Both the position numbers and the translations under genes were made by a program. The notes under the pieces were generated by a model, which was given only the letters and a program-made list of their open reading frames with translations, made no database searches and had not been told where the DNA came from. A stretch of 24,559 nucleotides of DNA from a virus. The stretch is taken from positions 1-24,559 of the IMG/VR virus record IMGVR_UViG_3300002144_000177; one strand, given 5' to 3'. This document shows, piece by piece, positions 2,272 to 17,769 of the stretch (positions are counted from its first letter, which is position 1; the number at the start of each line of letters is the position of its first letter).

Positions 2272-3351
2272 ATGGAAATAAAAATAGTTGACAGCACACC
2301 TCGTGATGTTCGGTTATTTGAAGGCGTTGATTATCCTGCAAAATTAAATCCCACAGACATAGTAGAAATTTTCCAAACTCCCTTAACTGGTACATATAAT
2401 TGGGACTACACAGTCCAAGACAATCGCATTAGAAAACTTTATGAATTAGGCAAACAGTTAAACTGGAATGCTGAAGTTGATGTTGATTGGACACCAGAGT
2501 TCAAAGGCATTGGTGAAGATGCATTTAATTTTGAAGACAACCAATGGAATGAACATCCTGAATACAAAACTTGGGATAAAGCAAAACGATTAGATTTTTT
2601 AACAGACTTAAATGCTTGGGCTATTAGTCAGTTTCTACACGGAGAACAAGGTGCTTTATTAGTGGCAAGTCAACTCACAAGTTGTGCGCCTACATTTAAT
2701 GCTAAACTGTATGCGGCTAGTCAAACATTTGATGAAGCAAGACATGTAGAAGCATTCAACAAATATCTACAAACCAGACTTAAAAAGAGTTGGCCTATAG
2801 GCACAGCATTAAAAGGCTTACTGGATAAAATACTCACAGACCCTAGATGGGATTTAAAGTTTATTGGTATGCAAGTTGTTATAGAAGGACTGGCACTTGC
2901 GGCCTTTCAGGCAAGTAGAGAAGCAAGTAGTGATCCTGTATACCGTCAAATGGTTGAATACATTATCAGAGACGAAGCAAGACATGTAACATTTGGTATA
3001 AATTACTTAACAGAATATGTACAAACATTAAGTGAAGAAGATCAATTGGACAGAGCAAAATTTGCCTTAGAGGCATGTACTGTAAGCAGAAATAGATTAA
3101 GAGCATATGATGTTTGGGAAAAATATGGTATGGATTTAGAGTTTACAGACGAATATCAAAAAACAAATATATTTCAAACACAATTCCAAGATGTATTATT
3201 CAGTAGAATAATGCCTAACCTCAAAAAGATAGGACTCCTCAGAGAAGAACTCATACCAGAATATGAGAAACTGGGTGTGATGAGTTACGCCGATGGTGAC
3301 TCAGATTACGAAACCAGTTGGGAAGAACTATCAAAACCACTAAAAACATAA
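2272..3351 (+). CDS. Ferritin-like di-iron oxidase (R2-like)
   Basis: A 359-residue helical protein with the complete di-iron signature of the ferritin-like / R2 superfamily: Glu125 (HGEQGALL), Glu155 and His158 (DEARHVEAF), Glu205 (VIEGLALA), then Glu235 and His238 (DEARHVTFG). The two ExxH pairs come from two helix pairs and would hold two metal ions. The first ligand is Glu rather than the Asp usual in ribonucleotide reductase NrdB. Together with the length and the absence of a recognisable NrdB C-terminal tail, this points to an R2-like oxidase or oxygenase rather than a reductase subunit. No large reductase subunit is present in the window. The substrate is unknown. It is followed one base later by the bL33-like gene, so the two are co-transcribed. 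It is a likely auxiliary metabolic gene. Confidence 0.85.
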   Translation: MEIKIVDSTPRDVRLFEGVDYPAKLNPTDIVEIFQTPLTGTYNWDYTVQDNRIRKLYELGKQLNWNAEVDVDWTPEFKGIGEDAFNFEDNQWNEHPEYKTWDKAKRLDFLTDLNAWAISQFLHGEQGALLVASQLTSCAPTFNAKLYAASQTFDEARHVEAFNKYLQTRLKKSWPIGTALKGLLDKILTDPRWDLKFIGMQVVIEGLALAAFQASREASSDPVYRQMVEYIIRDEARHVTFGINYLTEYVQTLSEEDQLDRAKFALEACTVSRNRLRAYDVWEKYGMDLEFTDEYQKTNIFQTQFQDVLFSRIMPNLKKIGLLREELIPEYEKLGVMSYADGDSDYETSWEELSKPLKT

Positions 3352-4309: not shown

Positions 4310-4337
4310 TTGACATAGGACTATATTAGTGTATAAT
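4310..4337 (+). promoter_or_regulatory. Consensus sigma70 promoter of gp32
   Basis: TTGACA at 4310-4315 and TATAAT at 4332-4337 are separated by 16 bases; both hexamers are perfect. The expected transcription start near 4344 gives a leader of about 104 bases before the gp32 ATG. The strength of the match implies direct use of host RNA polymerase with its housekeeping sigma factor. Confidence 0.8.
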
Positions 4338-4447: not shown

Positions 4448-5410
4448 ATGACAAGTCTAGCTGACATCCGTGCCAAACTCGCGGCACAAGATAAACCCCA
4501 AGGGAATTCATACCCACAATCTGACGGAGCGATCTATCCTCATTGGAAAATGGACGAAGGTGCATTAGCATCTCTACGTTTCTTACCCGATGCTGATACA
4601 GCAAACTCGTTCTTCTGGATTGAACGACAAATCATCAAACTACCATTCAATGGTGTTAAAGGTGATATAAACTCTAAACAAGTGACTGTTCAAGTTCCTT
4701 GCGTAGAGATGTTTGGTGAGAATTGTCCTGTACTGGCAGAAGTTCGTCCTTGGTACAAAGACGAATCTCTGAAAGAAATGGCAAACAAATATTGGAAGAA
4801 GCGTTCTTACATCTTTCAAGGCTTTGTACGTCAAAACCCTATCGGGGATGATCAAACTCCTGCGAATCCAATTCGTAGATTTGTTATATCACCTCAAATC
4901 TTCACTCTTATCAAAGCATCATTAATGGATCCTGAGATGGAAGAGTTGCCAACTGATTACATGCGTGGTCTTGATTTCAATATTAAGAAAACGACTAAAG
5001 GTCAGTATGCTGATTACTCGACATCTAACTGGTCTCGTAAAGAATCTGCATTGACTGAAGTAGAACAAGCGTCTATTGAAGCACATGGTCTATTCAATCT
5101 AGCAGACTTCTTACCCAAGAAGCCAAGTGAAGCAGAACTGCGTGTTATTAAAGAAATGTTCGAAGCATCTGTTGATGGTCGTCCATACGATAATGACAAG
5201 TGGGGAGCATACTATCGTCCATACGGACTTCAAGCACCAGAGGGCACCACTCCAGAAGTAACTACAGTAGCAACTCCAGTAGTTGCAACTGTATCGACAC
5301 CTCAGGTAGAAGAAGCTCCAGCTGTAGTGGCTCCTGCTAATTCAGGTACAACTAGCGATAAAGCACAGGACATTCTAGCAATGATTCGTGCAAGGCAAAG
5401 TAATAGCTAG
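4448..5410 (+). CDS. 32: Single-stranded DNA-binding protein Gp32
   Basis: A 320-residue protein matching the marine T4-like Gp32 pattern: a short basic N-terminus (LADIRAKLAAQ), a core with FFWIERQIIKLPFNGVKG, VQVPCVEMFGENCPVL, KYWKKRSYIFQGFV, NPIRRFVISPQIF and DYSTSNWSRKE, and a low-complexity C-terminal tail rich in Pro, Ala, Thr and Val ending in a short conserved-looking helix (AQDILAMIRARQ). It coats ssDNA and organises UvsX, UvsY, Gp41 and Gp61 at forks. T4 Gp32 binds zinc through His and three Cys; here Cys85 and Cys93 are visible but the position matching the last Cys is Leu96, so the zinc site is altered or absent. It has its own promoter, a structured leader and a terminator. Confidence 0.93.
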   Translation: MTSLADIRAKLAAQDKPQGNSYPQSDGAIYPHWKMDEGALASLRFLPDADTANSFFWIERQIIKLPFNGVKGDINSKQVTVQVPCVEMFGENCPVLAEVRPWYKDESLKEMANKYWKKRSYIFQGFVRQNPIGDDQTPANPIRRFVISPQIFTLIKASLMDPEMEELPTDYMRGLDFNIKKTTKGQYADYSTSNWSRKESALTEVEQASIEAHGLFNLADFLPKKPSEAELRVIKEMFEASVDGRPYDNDKWGAYYRPYGLQAPEGTTPEVTTVATPVVATVSTPQVEEAPAVVAPANSGTTSDKAQDILAMIRARQSNS

Positions 5411-7756: not shown

Positions 7757-7814
7757 CCCAAATGCTTGACATTACCCCAAAATGGCTGTATAATGCATAG
7801 TATAAACTGACACT
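7757..7814 (+). promoter_or_regulatory. Sigma70 promoter with shared flanks, copy 1
   Basis: TTGACA (7766-7771), 17 bases, TATAAT (7789-7794), both perfect. The -35 box lies within CCCAAATGCTTGACA (7757-7771), which matches 14 of 15 bases of the copy 2 promoter. ACTGACACT (7806-7814) follows 11 bases after the -10, at or just inside the expected transcript start, and is identical in copy 2. It drives the 121-residue unknown gene. Confidence 0.85.
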
Positions 7815-8212: not shown

Positions 8213-8271
8213 CCCAAAGGCTTGACAATAGCACTGAAAGGTGCTATAATACTATCTTACACACTGACACT
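8213..8271 (+). promoter_or_regulatory. Sigma70 promoter with shared flanks, copy 2
   Basis: TTGACA (8222-8227), 17 bases, TATAAT (8245-8250), preceded by CCCAAAGG and followed after 12 bases by ACTGACACT (8263-8271). The same upstream and downstream words flank the promoter at 7757-7814, while the spacer is different, so the flanks look selected rather than simply copied. It drives the AAA+ ATPase gene. Confidence 0.85.
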
Positions 8272-9315: not shown

Positions 9316-9333
9316 CTCTGTGTCAGGAGTGGG

Positions 9334-9360
9334 GGCGGTCTTCGGATCGCCTTTTTTATT
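9334..9360 (+). terminator. Rho-independent terminator with UUCG loop
   Basis: GGCGGTC (9334-9340) and GATCGCC (9345-9351) pair around a TTCG loop closed by C-G, followed by a run of six T. It ends the AAA+ ATPase transcript. It uses the same tetraloop as the gp32 leader hairpin. Confidence 0.9.
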
Positions 9361-9404: not shown

Positions 9405-10460
9405 ATGGAATTTCAACGTAAAGAACATCTCATTTATTACATGCTATCTAATAATAATGTTAGGTTAAGTCATTATGATTATTCCTTTTTAACGAGTATG
9501 CAATTTTTGGTACACGAGAAAAAAGATATCACTGAAGGTCAAGCCAATTTGTTTACTCGGTTGATTACAAAATATCAACATCAGTTATTCCTTAAGGGTC
9601 TTGTACAAAAATCACTTCATGCATTACCATGGCAAGCAAATGTCGTACCGAGTCTTCCCGAGTACACGAATGCAAGAGTTAAATATAACAAAGAAGAAAA
9701 TCTGTTAACCTTTGAAGTACCATTTAAAAAAGATTTTATTAATAAGTTCAACAGACACAGTTCAGACATCTGGCAATGGAACAAAGATAAAAGACGCTAT
9801 GAAGCACCTCCATCTACTGTTGCATTAAAGATGATATATACAACCTTGCCTAACTATTTTGAAACTGTGTATTACGGTGAGGTCAAAGAACTCATTGATG
9901 AATTAGAAAAAATAAGTAACACCACTACTCTTTGGAATCCAACCTTGGTAGAAACGAACGGCAATTATTTTATCGCCGCAAGTAATACTATATTAGATGA
10001 TCTGCTTAAAGACGTTCCTCTAAACGCAGAACCAAAAACACTTTGCAAGTTATCAGAAGTTGGTATTGCTATTGATGAAACGATTATAGCAAACAATGAT
10101 AAATTAAAATTCTGTTCGGAGTACACGACACAAATAGACATCGATCAAATACCTGAGGCTGCAAAATGGATTGCAGAATTGGGATGCGAGAAAGTTGTAC
10201 TAGCTAGAGGTTGGGCCCTTGACCACCTTGGTGTTCAGAACAAACCACACACATTAGAAATCATACAGCAGTTAAAAAATAATAACATTAACTTTGTTAG
10301 CAAAGCGTCAGTTGTAGTAGGCAATGATTTAGAGCAAGATTTAATGAAGGATGTAATGATATTGCAATACAGTACGTTACAAGACACGATGTCAAGTTCT
10401 AATCGTGGAGCAAGAAAGCATATACAAATAATAAACAGGAGAGCAATATCAGTAACATGA
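9405..10460 (+). CDS. Unknown protein encoded upstream of TonB receptor and uvsW (HARP-like segment)
   Basis: A 351-residue soluble protein. Residues about 42-65 (ITEGQANLFTRLITKYQHQL) form a helix of a type I recall in hypothetical proteins of marine phages. About residues 90-148 (LLTFEVPFKKDFINKFNRH, then IWQWNKDKRRYEAPPS and a helix) recall the HARP-like fold that accompanies SMARCAL1-type helicases, in which a strand-helix unit is followed by a Trp-containing turn. The C-terminal half has Rossmann-like alternation but no P-loop. It heads an operon with the TonB receptor and uvsW; its stop overlaps the receptor start (ATGA). It may be an accessory DNA-binding partner of UvsW; that is inference. 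Confidence 0.75.
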   Translation: MEFQRKEHLIYYMLSNNNVRLSHYDYSFLTSMQFLVHEKKDITEGQANLFTRLITKYQHQLFLKGLVQKSLHALPWQANVVPSLPEYTNARVKYNKEENLLTFEVPFKKDFINKFNRHSSDIWQWNKDKRRYEAPPSTVALKMIYTTLPNYFETVYYGEVKELIDELEKISNTTTLWNPTLVETNGNYFIAASNTILDDLLKDVPLNAEPKTLCKLSEVGIAIDETIIANNDKLKFCSEYTTQIDIDQIPEAAKWIAELGCEKVVLARGWALDHLGVQNKPHTLEIIQQLKNNNINFVSKASVVVGNDLEQDLMKDVMILQYSTLQDTMSSSNRGARKHIQIINRRAISVT

Positions 10461-12016
10461 AAAATAGAATAGCAATAGCAATGATGTTAACAGCATCAAT
10501 AGCAACATATACAAACGCCCAAGAGATCGAGGAGATCGTAGTCATGGGAACGACTATGTATGAAACAGAATCTAATCCAAGCACAGATGTCTTGTTGTTA
10601 GAATCACTCATACCAGAAGCAACACAAGCAGGTGGCTATGGTGGTTTTTCTGGTTATACAGAAAGAGGAACGCAAACAATACACACGAGTGTTTTTAGAA
10701 ATGGAGTCCCAGCAAATGATGCTGGCTCAGGTTGGTATGACTTTGGACATGACTACGCAACCGGCAACGAAACAATTAAAGTTGTTAACGGAGTCAACAG
10801 TGTTCTTTATGGTTCAGGTAGTTTAGGCGGGACAGTTTTTATTAACGATGATCTTATGAAAGATAGTTCTACTATCAGAGTAGGTGAACAACATAACTTT
10901 ATGTCTCATACATCAAACGGATTTAATATCTCATACTTTGATGTAAGCAATGACAGTGTTAAAACTAACAACGATGAAAGAGATGACTACTCTAACTTAA
11001 CTGTAAGAAATCAATTCACTGTAGGAGAGTTCACTACCAATCTTTCAGCCACTTCATACGACTATGACTATGATGGTTGTTACACTGCGAGTTTCTCATC
11101 ATCAAATGATTGTTCTCAGTTAGGTTCAAAAGGAACCTTATCAATAAGGAATGATAACTACACCTTTGGTTACTCTTTTAATAATGCCAAGTACAAGACT
11201 GAAAATGTACAAACATATTCATCAGATGCCGAGAGAGCATATGTAGATACAAGACACTCAGTTGGCAATCATATCTTTGGAGCAACGGTTGAGTATGAAG
11301 AATACGCAGACAACTCACAAGACAATATATCTGCTTATGCTTTGTTTAACTTCACTAACACTAACATAGGTGTTCGTGTAACAGAAGACACACTTGTAGG
11401 TAGATTAGGATTTGCGACAGACAACTTTTATTTCAGTGCTGGTACGTCTTATCGTAATCCAACTCTATACGAAATAAATGGTGATGCGTGGACACTAGCA
11501 AACTTTGATTTAGATCCTGAGGAAGCACTAGGGTATGAATTAGGTTATGGTAATCTAACATACTTTAACTATCATTTCTCAGAAGGGATTGATTACAGTT
11601 ATGCTTCATCGCAGTTTGTTAACACAGGCGAGTATGATACACAAGGGATAAGATATAACAACTCAATGTCCTTTGATTACTTAGATACATTCATAGGCTA
11701 TGAGTTAGGCTACACTGATTCAGATCAACCAAGAGTTGCCAAGTATAAAGCAATCATTACAAGTGTACATCAAGTAGACAACTATAAACTATCATTCACA
11801 TACACAGGACTGTTCGACAGAGAGCCTGGACCGTATGATGGGACAGCAATGTTAGATGATGTAAGTTCAATTGACTATAAGATCGAAGGATCTATTGCTC
11901 CAAACTACTTGCTATCGGCTACGATTAGAGATATACTTGACAGACGATATGAATACATTCCAGGATACAATTCTGGTGGCGTTGAATTCTTTATCACATT
12001 ACAATATAGGCCTTAA
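10457..12016 (+). CDS. TonB-dependent outer-membrane receptor
   Basis: A 519-residue protein with a signal peptide (MKNRIAIAMMLTASIATYTNA, cleavage likely before Gln22), a TonB box EEIVVMG (25-31), and a plug domain to about residue 130. The plug includes VFRNGVPAND, ETIKVVNGVNSVLYGSGSLG and GTVFIND, the family's NGxxSxLYGSxxxGGxxxI signature. The rest is a barrel of alternating Tyr/Phe/Asn-rich strands ending FFITLQYRP. It is shorter than BtuB (about 610), mainly through short loops. The last residue is Pro rather than the usual aromatic. These receptors import siderophores, vitamin B12 or other scarce ligands with TonB energy. A phage could use one to feed the host, or to replace or mask a receptor that rival phages use. 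AGGAGAG lies 13 bases before the ATG. The family call is firm, the role unknown. Confidence 0.9.
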   Translation: MKNRIAIAMMLTASIATYTNAQEIEEIVVMGTTMYETESNPSTDVLLLESLIPEATQAGGYGGFSGYTERGTQTIHTSVFRNGVPANDAGSGWYDFGHDYATGNETIKVVNGVNSVLYGSGSLGGTVFINDDLMKDSSTIRVGEQHNFMSHTSNGFNISYFDVSNDSVKTNNDERDDYSNLTVRNQFTVGEFTTNLSATSYDYDYDGCYTASFSSSNDCSQLGSKGTLSIRNDNYTFGYSFNNAKYKTENVQTYSSDAERAYVDTRHSVGNHIFGATVEYEEYADNSQDNISAYALFNFTNTNIGVRVTEDTLVGRLGFATDNFYFSAGTSYRNPTLYEINGDAWTLANFDLDPEEALGYELGYGNLTYFNYHFSEGIDYSYASSQFVNTGEYDTQGIRYNNSMSFDYLDTFIGYELGYTDSDQPRVAKYKAIITSVHQVDNYKLSFTYTGLFDREPGPYDGTAMLDDVSSIDYKIEGSIAPNYLLSATIRDILDRRYEYIPGYNSGGVEFFITLQYRP

Positions 12017-12020
12017 ACGA

Positions 12021-13478
12021 ATGCCCGGAACTGCAATACTTAAAATCAAAGACGAGGTCAATCTAAAGATTGAAGGACTCGAACTGGATGCTCGTAGAGC
12101 ATTGATGAAGAAATTCGAGTACGAAGTTCCAGGAGCCCGTTATATGCCTAGTGTAAGGTTGGGTAGATGGAATGGAAAGGTGACTTACTGTTCGTTAGCA
12201 GGCTCAACGTTTATTAATCTCTTACCACAAATTATTCCTATCTTAGAAGAACTCAATTATGATATCGAGTTGGAAGATTTACGGGGTTACACGAACACAT
12301 TTAACTTTGAAGAAGTTACAGTAGATACGTTTAAAGACGTTCTCTGGCCCAAAGGACACGTCTGTGAGGGGCAGTCTATCGAACTGAGGGACTATCAAGT
12401 AGAAGTTATTAATCAGTTCTTAGCAAACCCTCAATCGATTCAAGAGGTCGCTACAGGGGCAGGAAAGACGATTATGACTGCCGCCCTGAGTAAGAGTATC
12501 GAAGCATATGGACGAAGCATTGTCATCGTTCCTAACAAGAGTCTAGTTACACAAACAGAAGAAGATTATATAAATTTAGGTTTGGATGTCGGTGTCTATT
12601 TTGGTGATCGAAAAGAATACTTTAAGCAACACACTATCTGTACATGGCAATCACTCAACATTCTATTAAAGAACTCTAAGAAAGGTGATGTAGATTGCAC
12701 CATCGATGAGTTCATTGAAGGTGTTGTATGTGTCATGGTTGACGAAGTACACATGGCTAAAGCAGATGCGTTGAAGCAACTGTTAACAGGTGTCATGGCA
12801 CACATTCCCATTCGCTGGGGATTGACTGGGACAGTTCCGAAAGCAGAATACGAAAGACTTGCCTTAGAAGTTAGTTTAGGTCCAGTCATTAATAAATTGT
12901 CTGCTAAAGAATTACAAGACCAAGGTGTCTTGGCAAAATGTCACGTGAACATTGTGCAATTACAAGACGATAAAGAATTCAGTGACTATCAAGCCGAACT
13001 AAAACACTTGCTATCAGATTCTAACCGTTTAGATAAAATAGCAGAGTTGATAGATAAGATTAAAGAGACAGGCAATACACTAGTGTTAGTTGATCGAGTG
13101 AATGCAGGTAATGCCCTTGTTGAAAGATTAGACGATGCAGTATTTGTATCAGGGGGAATGAAAGTTGTCGATAGAAAAGAAGAATATGATGATGTTGCCA
13201 CTAGCACTAATAAAATTATTGTTGCTACTTACGGCGTGGCTAGTACTGGTATTAATATTCCTAGGATATTTAATCTTGTACTCCTTGAACCAGGTAAGAG
13301 TTTTGTTCGTGTCATACAGTCTATCGGGCGTGGCATTCGTAAAGCGGACGATAAAGACTTTGTTCAAATCTGGGACATAACAAGTTCGTGCAGATTTGCT
13401 AAACGACATTTAACTTCTCGTAAAGCATTTTACAAAGAAGCAAACTATCCGTTTGCTATAGAAAAATTAAAATATTGA
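12021..13478 (+). CDS. uvsW: UvsW-type SF2 DNA helicase
   Basis: The frame is open from 11871, but that would overlap the receptor gene. The start at 12021 (MPGTAILKIKDEVNLKIEG), 4 bases after the receptor stop, fits the N-terminal domain of UvsW, so the protein has 485 residues (T4 UvsW about 500). The N-terminal double-stranded-DNA-binding domain includes FEYEVPGARYMPSVRLGRWN. The helicase motifs are LRDYQ (Q-like), ATGAGKT (144-150), DEVH (241-244), GLTGT and QSIGRGIRK (motif VI). UvsW drives branch migration, unwinds R-loops and moves replication from origin to recombination mode. Only a weak ribosome site is present, so it is probably coupled to the receptor gene. Confidence 0.92.
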   Translation: MPGTAILKIKDEVNLKIEGLELDARRALMKKFEYEVPGARYMPSVRLGRWNGKVTYCSLAGSTFINLLPQIIPILEELNYDIELEDLRGYTNTFNFEEVTVDTFKDVLWPKGHVCEGQSIELRDYQVEVINQFLANPQSIQEVATGAGKTIMTAALSKSIEAYGRSIVIVPNKSLVTQTEEDYINLGLDVGVYFGDRKEYFKQHTICTWQSLNILLKNSKKGDVDCTIDEFIEGVVCVMVDEVHMAKADALKQLLTGVMAHIPIRWGLTGTVPKAEYERLALEVSLGPVINKLSAKELQDQGVLAKCHVNIVQLQDDKEFSDYQAELKHLLSDSNRLDKIAELIDKIKETGNTLVLVDRVNAGNALVERLDDAVFVSGGMKVVDRKEEYDDVATSTNKIIVATYGVASTGINIPRIFNLVLLEPGKSFVRVIQSIGRGIRKADDKDFVQIWDITSSCRFAKRHLTSRKAFYKEANYPFAIEKLKY

Positions 13479-15428: not shown

Positions 15429-15841
15429 TGTCAAAAAGTAAACTTATCACCAAGAAACTTGATAGTAGATTTACTGGAAATCAATATTTCAAGTATCAAG
15501 TTACACTATTAAATTTGCCAGAGGGTGATAGATTTAGTCCAACACGAGGCTTCTACGAAGACTTACTCAAAATCATAGACTACAATAAAATCAGAGACTG
15601 GTGCTGGGATACTTGGGGAGCCAGTTGTGATCTAAAAGACTATGATAGAATTGCAGAACTCAAGCAGTACCCGTCAATAAATACATACAGTGATAGGATT
15701 GAAATATTGGATGATTATGGACTTAATGCAAAATGGTGTTTTTCTAATGAAGACATACCAGCGCCAGGTAACCAAAGAGATCGCAGAATTTATTTGCGTG
15801 GCAATGAAGAATTAGCATGGTTAGAACTCCGATGGAAGTAA
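15428..15841 (+). CDS. Unknown protein upstream of the radical SAM fusion
   Basis: A 137-residue protein with a basic N-terminus (MSKSKLITKKLDSRFTGN) and an aromatic-rich body (GFYEDLLKIIDYNKIRDWCW, DTWGASCDL, NAKWCFSNEDIPAPG, RRIYLRGNEELAWLELRW). Three cysteines and many Trp/Tyr suggest a compact mixed fold. Its start shares an A with the preceding stop (TAATG), and its end overlaps the radical SAM gene by 25 bases. I do not recognise the family. Tight coupling raises the possibility that it is a partner or a substrate of that enzyme, but nothing in the sequence resembles a RiPP precursor with a leader. Confidence 0.75.
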   Translation: MSKSKLITKKLDSRFTGNQYFKYQVTLLNLPEGDRFSPTRGFYEDLLKIIDYNKIRDWCWDTWGASCDLKDYDRIAELKQYPSINTYSDRIEILDDYGLNAKWCFSNEDIPAPGNQRDRRIYLRGNEELAWLELRWK

Positions 15842-17769
15842 AGGAACCGATCTATTGTGCGTTAGCATTTGGCTCTGCTTCAATTGACGGTAGAGGTTAC
15901 AAACCTTGTTGCAACATTAGGCCTAATTCATGGAAACGAAACGCAGATGATTTCAATCATCCTAACCTTATTGAAATAAGAGAACAACTTATTGAAGGTG
16001 ATTGGCATAAGGCTTGTTACAATTGTAAAGAGACAGAAGAAGCATCAAACACATCTATGCGTACTATATGGAATAAATCATTAAAAGATTATGATATTCC
16101 TATGACTTCTATTGTTGATCCCAATAACGTTTATTACCTGGACTTAACATTTAGTAACAAGTGTAATTCAAAATGTATTACATGTTCTCCTGATCTATCT
16201 AATCAATGGGGAGACGAATACAAAGCAATCTGGAAAACTGACCATCAGCCTATAGGACACAAAAACCCAATTGATCATCTAAGCATTTACATAGATGAAG
16301 ATGATGCAATTGATATTTACAACACTTATCCAAATGTAGAACGCATTGCATTCGTCGGTGGTGAACCTACGATTATGGAAGAACACACGTTGTTCTGTCA
16401 GCAACTAATTGACGGAGATAGAGCAAAGAATATAACGTTAGCATATGTTAGTAATCTAACAGGCATTACTGATAACCTAATAGAAATGTGGACACACTTT
16501 AAAGGAATACATTTAAGTTTATCAATTGATGGCTATGGCAAAGTAAATGATTATATACGTTATCCATTTAAATGGGCTAAAATAGAAAAAAACACACGAT
16601 TGTTGTTTGACTTACAGAAAAAAGAACCTCACAAGTATAGTTTGAATTTAAGTCATACTGTTAGTGTGTTTAACATTATACAATCTCCTAAATTATTGAA
16701 TTGGTGGGAGGATCTGCGTATTGAATATGGTTTTGCAAAGAACATGGGACCATCAGTATTTTTAAATCAAGTAACAGAACCAGTCCATGCAAAACCAAAC
16801 ATTATCTCACTTGAATACAGAGCAAGAGCAATACAAGAAGTAGAAAACTTAAGACTTAAGGTATCTGATCATAGCTTGTGGTTATCACAAATTGACATCT
16901 TACATTCATGGCTTGTTGAACCTCAACATGCTTCTGTACTGGACGCCAAACGATTGTATCAATTAATAACAGGGTCAGATGAATATAGAAATAGAAAATT
17001 AAAAGATTACATTCCAGAATTAGCAGAGGAATTAGATACTAAGTTTTTTAATAGTATACAGAGTGAACTACAACATGAAGGCAAAGGATATGATCTAGCA
17101 TATGATATTATACCTACTCCGTTACTAGATGCAGTTGCAGATAAACTCGATTCATGTTATCCTGTAAGAGCATCTACACACAAGAAACAATATGCAGAAG
17201 CAGAAGACACAAAGAAACTTCATGGCATTGCAGTCTGGTGGTCACAACTAACAGACGAATGGGAAGAGGTACAAAAAATAAATGATATTGTCTTTCCGAA
17301 AATACAAACACATATGCCAAATGCAGAATTTTATGCAAGTGATATCGTTACAATAAATGGACCAAGCAGATGGGTAGGCCCTCATGTTGATACGCCGCAT
17401 CGTTTCGAAAGATACAATAAAATGGCGACAGATTTAAACTTTGAACTCTTGGGCATACAAGTCATTATTCCTTTAGAAACAATAGATGCAGATTCTGGTG
17501 CGACTGGGTTACTACCTTATAGTCATCGACAAGATTGGAACATACAAGATTGCTACGACGGCCACTTTGATGATATGTTTAAAGAAGAAGCAGTACAACA
17601 CGACATGCCTAAAGGGTCAATGTTGTTTTACAATACTCGTTTACTGCATTCAACGATGCCAATGCATTTACCCAAAAAGCGTTCCATACTATTGCTTAAT
17701 TACCTGAGACGTGATATAATAAAGACTGTAAAAAAGATAGATAACGTGTGGAGTAGTAATGGCAAATGA
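15817..17769 (+). CDS. Radical SAM (twitch-type) / 2OG-Fe(II) dioxygenase fusion
   Basis: A 650-residue two-enzyme protein. Residues 12-85 resemble the cysteine-rich N-terminus of twitch-type radical SAM proteins: YCALAFGSASIDGRGYKPCC, then LIEIREQLIEGDWHKACYNC. Residues 106-310 are the radical SAM barrel, with the cluster-binding CNSKCITC (Cys116, 120, 123) and GGEP (181-184) for SAM binding. Residues about 425-635 are a phytanoyl-CoA dioxygenase-like domain with HVD (His523, Asp525), GATGLLPYSH, and distal His611 and Arg622 for iron and 2-oxoglutarate. Both active sites look intact. It would carry out a radical step and a hydroxylation, perhaps on one peptide or small molecule; the substrate is unknown. 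ATG 15832 is an alternative start. It overlaps both neighbours. Confidence 0.88.
   Translation: MVRTPMEVKEPIYCALAFGSASIDGRGYKPCCNIRPNSWKRNADDFNHPNLIEIREQLIEGDWHKACYNCKETEEASNTSMRTIWNKSLKDYDIPMTSIVDPNNVYYLDLTFSNKCNSKCITCSPDLSNQWGDEYKAIWKTDHQPIGHKNPIDHLSIYIDEDDAIDIYNTYPNVERIAFVGGEPTIMEEHTLFCQQLIDGDRAKNITLAYVSNLTGITDNLIEMWTHFKGIHLSLSIDGYGKVNDYIRYPFKWAKIEKNTRLLFDLQKKEPHKYSLNLSHTVSVFNIIQSPKLLNWWEDLRIEYGFAKNMGPSVFLNQVTEPVHAKPNIISLEYRARAIQEVENLRLKVSDHSLWLSQIDILHSWLVEPQHASVLDAKRLYQLITGSDEYRNRKLKDYIPELAEELDTKFFNSIQSELQHEGKGYDLAYDIIPTPLLDAVADKLDSCYPVRASTHKKQYAEAEDTKKLHGIAVWWSQLTDEWEEVQKINDIVFPKIQTHMPNAEFYASDIVTINGPSRWVGPHVDTPHRFERYNKMATDLNFELLGIQVIIPLETIDADSGATGLLPYSHRQDWNIQDCYDGHFDDMFKEEAVQHDMPKGSMLFYNTRLLHSTMPMHLPKKRSILLLNYLRRDIIKTVKKIDNVWSSNGK

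Follow-up and report, generated by a model that had tools for sequence, protein, structure and literature searches.

The window analysed here is the entire 24,559-base IMG/VR record, and its gene content is that of a T4-like replication region. It encodes gp32 (at 4448), uvsX (5712), uvsW (12021), a primase (21233) and a DnaB-type helicase (22191), which bears out the "recombination operon" setting proposed in an earlier note made from the sequence. Judged by UvsW, the nearest isolated relatives are large phages, namely Sinorhizobium phage Phosso (469 kb) and PA5oct-like phages, at about 52–54% identity. The gene of interest lies directly before uvsW (Table 1). It is a complete open reading frame with an ATG start and no internal stop, the opposite strand of the same stretch being rich in stops. 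The tight packing described in the earlier note is also found: there is a 4-base overlap with the upstream gene, and 4 bases separate the end of the gene from the uvsW ATG.

Table 1. Features of the receptor gene, its protein and its surroundings (positions in the window).
Feature	Position	Strand	Basis
Sigma-70 consensus promoter, 12/12, extended -10	8222..8250	+	
Intrinsic terminator-like hairpin, ahead of the gene group from 9405 through the receptor gene to uvsW	9331..9354	+	
Upstream gene, overlapping the receptor gene by 4 bases	9405..10460	+	ORF
BtuB-like TonB-dependent receptor, 519 aa	10457..12016	+	Pfam, AlphaFold, Foldseek
Signal peptide, residues 1-22 (MKNRIAIAMMLTASIATYTNAQ)	10457..10522	+	Sequence reading; predicted helix 2-15
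Ton box IEEIVVMG, residues 24-31	10526..10549	+	Kept in alignments A1, A2, A4
Plug domain, residues 32-131	10550..10849	+	PF07715; Ton box-to-RG spacing
Plug vestibule loop RNGVPANDAGSGWYDFGHDY, putative ligand site	10697..10756	+	Lowest entropy in family; YDF[GA][HN] motif
22-stranded beta barrel, residues 137-517	10865..12007	+	AlphaFold models
Asp-rich extracellular loops L2 (165-176) and L3 (206-218)	10949..11113	+	Alignment, loop conservation
uvsW-type DNA helicase, 4 bases downstream of the receptor gene	12021..13478	+	PHROG DNA helicase 2e-83; UvsW_N, ResIII

The encoded protein has the parts expected of a TonB-dependent receptor. Residues 41–126 match PF07715 (Plug) at 3e-8, with 34.6 bits against a gathering cut-off of 23.9, and PF00593 (TonB_dep_Rec, the barrel) is matched at 7.7e-7, with 29.8 bits against a cut-off of 27. 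The signal peptide, TonB box, plug and barrel that had been read from the letters are thus all present in the complete 519-residue frame, according to Pfam, alignments and the predicted structure. In the alignment the L2/L3 stretch lines up with the calcium-loop region of BtuB, and C208 and C219 form an invariant cysteine pair at loop L3. The C-terminus ends in QYRP in 15 of the 66 aligned relatives, the others having YK or the usual aromatic W. Since the C-termini of relatives vary in this way, the final proline is a detail of the lineage and not, as had been suggested, a mark of a plug-like or decoy form. Some distant family members have long loops and reach a total size of up to 689 residues.

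An AlphaFold model built from 66 rows (pLDDT 87, pTM 0.85) consists of a plug, with strands at 33–38, 78–81, 105–111 and 126–131, and a barrel at 137–517 of exactly 22 strands; an earlier model from 16 rows also gave 22 barrel strands. The barrel had been described as compact, with short loops. Several extracellular loops of the model are indeed only 2–4 residues long, but the barrel itself is not reduced.

The best Foldseek match of the model is the BtuB:TonB complex 2gsk (E 1.6e-19, TM 0.78), and places 1 to 13 among the PDB matches are all BtuB structures. In a profile search against the PDB, BtuB, at 8e-17, is the one receptor with a value under 0.01, and hhalign of the phage profile against E. 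coli BtuB gives E 4.5e-18. TIGR01779 (TonB-B12) is matched by 13 of the 13 rows of alignment A1. However, the TIGR01779/NF007926 equivalog cut-off is missed by far (50.7 against 599.7 bits), and the protein is for this reason called BtuB-like here, not BtuB. Of the calcium and B12 sites of E. coli BtuB, the Asp-rich L2/L3 loops are kept, while single positions match in part, depending on the alignment. In its nearest sequences and its predicted fold, the phage protein is specifically a BtuB-like TonB-dependent receptor, and the earlier note's proposal of a phage-encoded receptor of this class inside the recombination region is supported.

BtuB is among the smallest receptors of known structure, and compactness alone could favour it in such comparisons. 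A second line of evidence was therefore sought in riboswitches. The bacterial kin of the phage receptor were chosen by running the phage profile against some 700 Pseudomonadota genomes and taking the best matches (L152, near a contig end, was left out). A cobalamin or AdoCbl-II riboswitch lies directly upstream on the same strand in 13 of these 14 matches, compared with 2 of 20 other receptors of the same genomes, which were the strongest PF00593 matches and not a random draw (Fisher p = 1.4e-6). The vestibule motif YDF[GA][HN] is common to the phage proteins and several of the best-matching bacterial receptors, for example L149. No cobalamin riboswitch was found in the window or in 8 phage loci scanned, so that at these loci B12 itself would not shut off uptake.

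The plug differs in length from that of BtuB. Ton box and first plug RG motif are separated by 45–46 residues in 62 of the 62 phage proteins in which this spacing could be measured, compared with 61 residues in E. coli BtuB and in L161. The N-terminal side of the plug is thus about 15 residues short throughout the phage family.

Relatives of the receptor, at 36–94% identity, occur in at least 222 viral stretches (successive scans gave 14 loci, 45, and then 222); the sampling was pattern-based, so these frequencies are no population estimates. A survey of related phages, as the earlier note had suggested, finds the gene directly upstream of uvsW in 102 of the 104 distinct loci that have both genes, the other two having it about 190 bases away. 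In the receptor-less relatives the site is empty, and in many of them the homologue of the gene at 9405 directly overlaps the start of uvsW. The gene is by this pattern an accessory gene (moron), the site beside uvsW being filled in some phages and empty in related ones. On a UvsW tree the receptor is found in two groups, and the group that includes the window is nested among receptor-less phages. Four changes suffice to explain the presence of the receptor on this tree, compared with 36 in shuffles. A second TonB-dependent receptor was not found in any of the receptor-bearing records, and the receptor-less relatives are without any plug domain.

The proposed placement in a tree with bacterial receptors puts the phage copies in a single clade (support 100), separate from all bacterial rows. 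Its closest neighbour, tentatively because the branches are long, is the E. coli BtuB group (support 88). A pattern scan of 85,000 species for a bacterial source of the gene gave 94 pattern matches and, within the limits of the pattern, no relatives. Movement can be seen between phages. The synonymous divergence between the window and L002/L003 is 0.16 in the receptor gene, compared with 0.61–0.72 in the adjoining uvsW, and at the nucleotide level the body of the receptor gene is 91–99% identical, uvsW 76–97% and the greater part of the upstream gene 52–76%. By this pattern the receptor gene looks like a cassette recently exchanged between relatives.

The gene is under purifying selection, with dN/dS of 0.12–0.22 for the whole gene and 0.04–0.11 for the plug. 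Column entropy, averaged over each part in the 66-row alignment, is lowest in the vestibule loop (0.64) and rises through the Ton box (0.74), the extracellular loops (1.31) and the barrel strands (1.72) to the signal peptide (2.39), where the family varies most. The strands are thus less well conserved than the Ton box, the plug vestibule or the extracellular loops. This order is the opposite of that expected from an arms race at the outer face, and since the ligand face and the Ton box are kept, the conservation pattern favours a functioning transporter rather than a decoy.

Three perfect sigma-70 promoters are present in the window (at 4310–4337 and 7766–7794 besides that in Table 1), where shuffling predicts 0.02, and none of the three is at the start of the receptor gene. 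Over both receptor-bearing groups together, 34 of 94 distinct loci have a host-type sigma-70 consensus of 11–12 of 12 that coincides with the start of the receptor gene or lies shortly upstream of it, and in 41 of 94 a uvsW promoter (12 of 12) overlaps the final receptor codons. From these consensus sites we infer early expression of the receptor. In L013, L295 and others, the uvsW promoter lies within the last receptor codons, with TTGACA encoding Leu-Thr and TATAAT just past the stop. The uvsW promoter is preserved at the empty site in L266–L282.

On the basis of these observations we consider it probable, at somewhat better than even chances, that the protein is a phage-lineage receptor of the BtuB type that imports cobalamin or a close corrinoid into the infected cell by way of the host TonB-ExbBD. 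The receptor would be made early in infection and exported to the outer membrane, where it is presumably displayed on the surface. TonB_C was found in 0 of 19 records, and with no phage TonB found it is the host TonB that would be used. Host TonB-ExbBD would then power the uptake of vitamin B12 (cobalamin) or a closely related corrinoid, and the host BtuFCD would pass it onward. The phage may benefit because B12 no longer shuts off uptake, and because supply may be secured for the host MetH and for the B12-binding radical SAM enzymes of some of these phages. Of the two roles put forward in the earlier note, feeding of the infected cell is thus favoured and can be narrowed to uptake of the cobalamin type by the BtuB matches and the riboswitch-bearing kin. 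The decoy or plug-like form is disfavoured by the 22 strands, the Ton box, the selection on the plug and the conserved loops.

The phage genomes were also searched for users of B12. Cobalamin-binding radical SAM proteins are encoded in two receptor-bearing records, one of them of a KedN5-like methylcobalamin type. Such genes are equally frequent with and without the receptor (2 of 15 and 2 of 16 in two sets), and as they are no commoner than in receptor-less relatives, a link between them and the receptor was rejected. Ribonucleotide reductase was not found in the first 15 records and is present in 7 of 22 further ones. The one that was classified, from a receptor-bearing record, is class Ia, with NrdB alongside, and is B12-independent; a class II (B12-dependent) enzyme, and with it dNTP supply, is accordingly not supported as the motive for B12 uptake. 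This leaves host methionine synthase and the radical SAM enzymes as the proposed beneficiaries.

The receptor could instead have drifted from B12 and import another scarce ligand, such as a siderophore, heme or an unusual corrinoid. The stem of the phage clade is long (2.06 changes per site), its vestibule sequence WYDFxHD is unlike that of E. coli BtuB, and the calcium residues of BtuB are not all kept in the alignment. However, vestibules with YDFGH, YDFGN and YDFA also occur in bacterial receptors, mostly behind cobalamin riboswitches, and every best fold match is BtuB. We regard such a change of ligand as unlikely.

Receptors of the BtuB type are known receptors for phages and colicins. 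A phage copy could for this reason act at the surface, competing with or replacing a BtuB-like receptor of the host and so blocking later phages or colicin-like toxins. The exchange of the gene among relatives as an island would suit this role, and the PDB matches include BtuB with colicin E3. The loops of such a protein would be expected to diversify, yet they are better conserved than the strands, and the plug and Ton box, which are unnecessary for display, are the best-kept parts. In addition, the receptor has no match to a defence family. A role in decoy or receptor exchange is therefore somewhat less likely still. The remaining concern, that the gene is host DNA, an assembly chimera or a passing passenger, has nothing in its favour except that the receptor family is a bacterial one and can be dismissed as extremely improbable, contamination and chimerism being refuted by the synteny of the 104 loci, and the single phage clade, the neighbour-like codon-position GC (GC3 0.29) and the purifying selection also speaking against it.

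The phage protein can be compared with known systems. Like E. coli BtuB (2gsk, 1nqh), it has a plug and a 22-strand barrel, a Ton box and Asp-rich L2/L3 loops. Unlike BtuB, it is about 95 residues shorter overall, with the plug about 15 shorter near the Ton box, has the invariant cysteine pair in L3, is phage-borne without a cobalamin riboswitch, and scores far under the equivalog level. The best bacterial matches, the riboswitch-controlled BtuB-like receptors of Pseudomonadota, share the YDF[GA][HN] motif and, in the case of L149, a D-x-C...NDC loop. They differ in being at least 613 residues long, riboswitch-controlled and chromosomal.

Among viral proteins, the only strong fold match in BFVD is A0A8D9FQQ5, "TonB-dependent receptor SusC [uncultured marine phage]" (E 1.8e-8), which has 10% identity and 805 residues and is of the SusC rather than the BtuB type. 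In the pelagiphage Polarivirus skadi, a gene annotated as a TonB-dependent receptor sits within the structural genes, flanked by those for tail tube proteins and capsid, and was taken by the authors as a hint to the adsorption receptor (PMC10504331). The nearest published idea that we found is that of the CsgG/CsgF outer-membrane pores encoded by pelagimyophages and Melnitz, for which a role in uptake has been proposed (PMC7029224, PMC9004378). Like the present receptor these are outer-membrane channels of T4-like phages, in their case marine ones, but they have another fold, are passive pores and belong to an unrelated family. CsgG is also present in one receptor-bearing record.

A collection of 50,697 phage records yielded no convincing homologue, with one marginal partial match at E 7e-3, and two distant family members used as queries found none there either. 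BtuB matches in "phage" records were set aside, since most came from contigs of bacteria that had been entered under a phage label (Salmonella, Acinetobacter) or from fragments without annotation. A literature search, with subscription papers and preprints outside its scope, gave no report of a phage-encoded TonB-dependent receptor or btuB as an auxiliary gene. The phages that carry the family are large, T4-like and known from metagenomes alone, and as far as we have searched, a widespread phage clade carrying its own TonB-dependent receptor in the replication region is undescribed.

TonB-dependent receptors are used by phages as entry doors, and many aquatic microbes depend on a supply of vitamin B12. 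If B12 is what is imported, phage infection would be tied to the vitamin supply of aquatic microbes. The broader proposal, that T4-like phages keep their own clade of B12 receptors as a riboswitch-free cassette beside uvsW and so sustain B12 import during infection, has in our view slightly less than an even chance of being correct; if true, it would place vitamin supply under active phage control. With its shortened plug, seemingly still under selection, the protein would in addition give structural studies a minimal TonB-dependent transporter.

Some minor observations can be added. The receptor has a 4e-10 match to PHROG 5687 (phrog_5687; 760 positions, annotated as of unknown function). This suggests other phage proteins of the group to be TonB-dependent receptors as well. 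The 83-kb receptor-bearing record L054–L058 encodes CsgG, ThyX, CHASE2, guanylate cyclase and FecR domains together with a B12-binding radical SAM protein. Elsewhere in the window, 1856–2254 encodes a small protein over the cut-off for Peptidase_C93 (bacterial transglutaminase-like cysteine proteinase), and 2272–3351 a ferritin-like di-iron protein without a PHROG, with weak matches to AurF, the RNR small chain and R2-like oxidase. Finally, the 650-residue protein encoded at 15817–17769 is a radical SAM domain fused to a PhyH (phytanoyl-CoA dioxygenase) domain, its homologue in relatives such as L026 being the PhyH part alone, of 275 residues.
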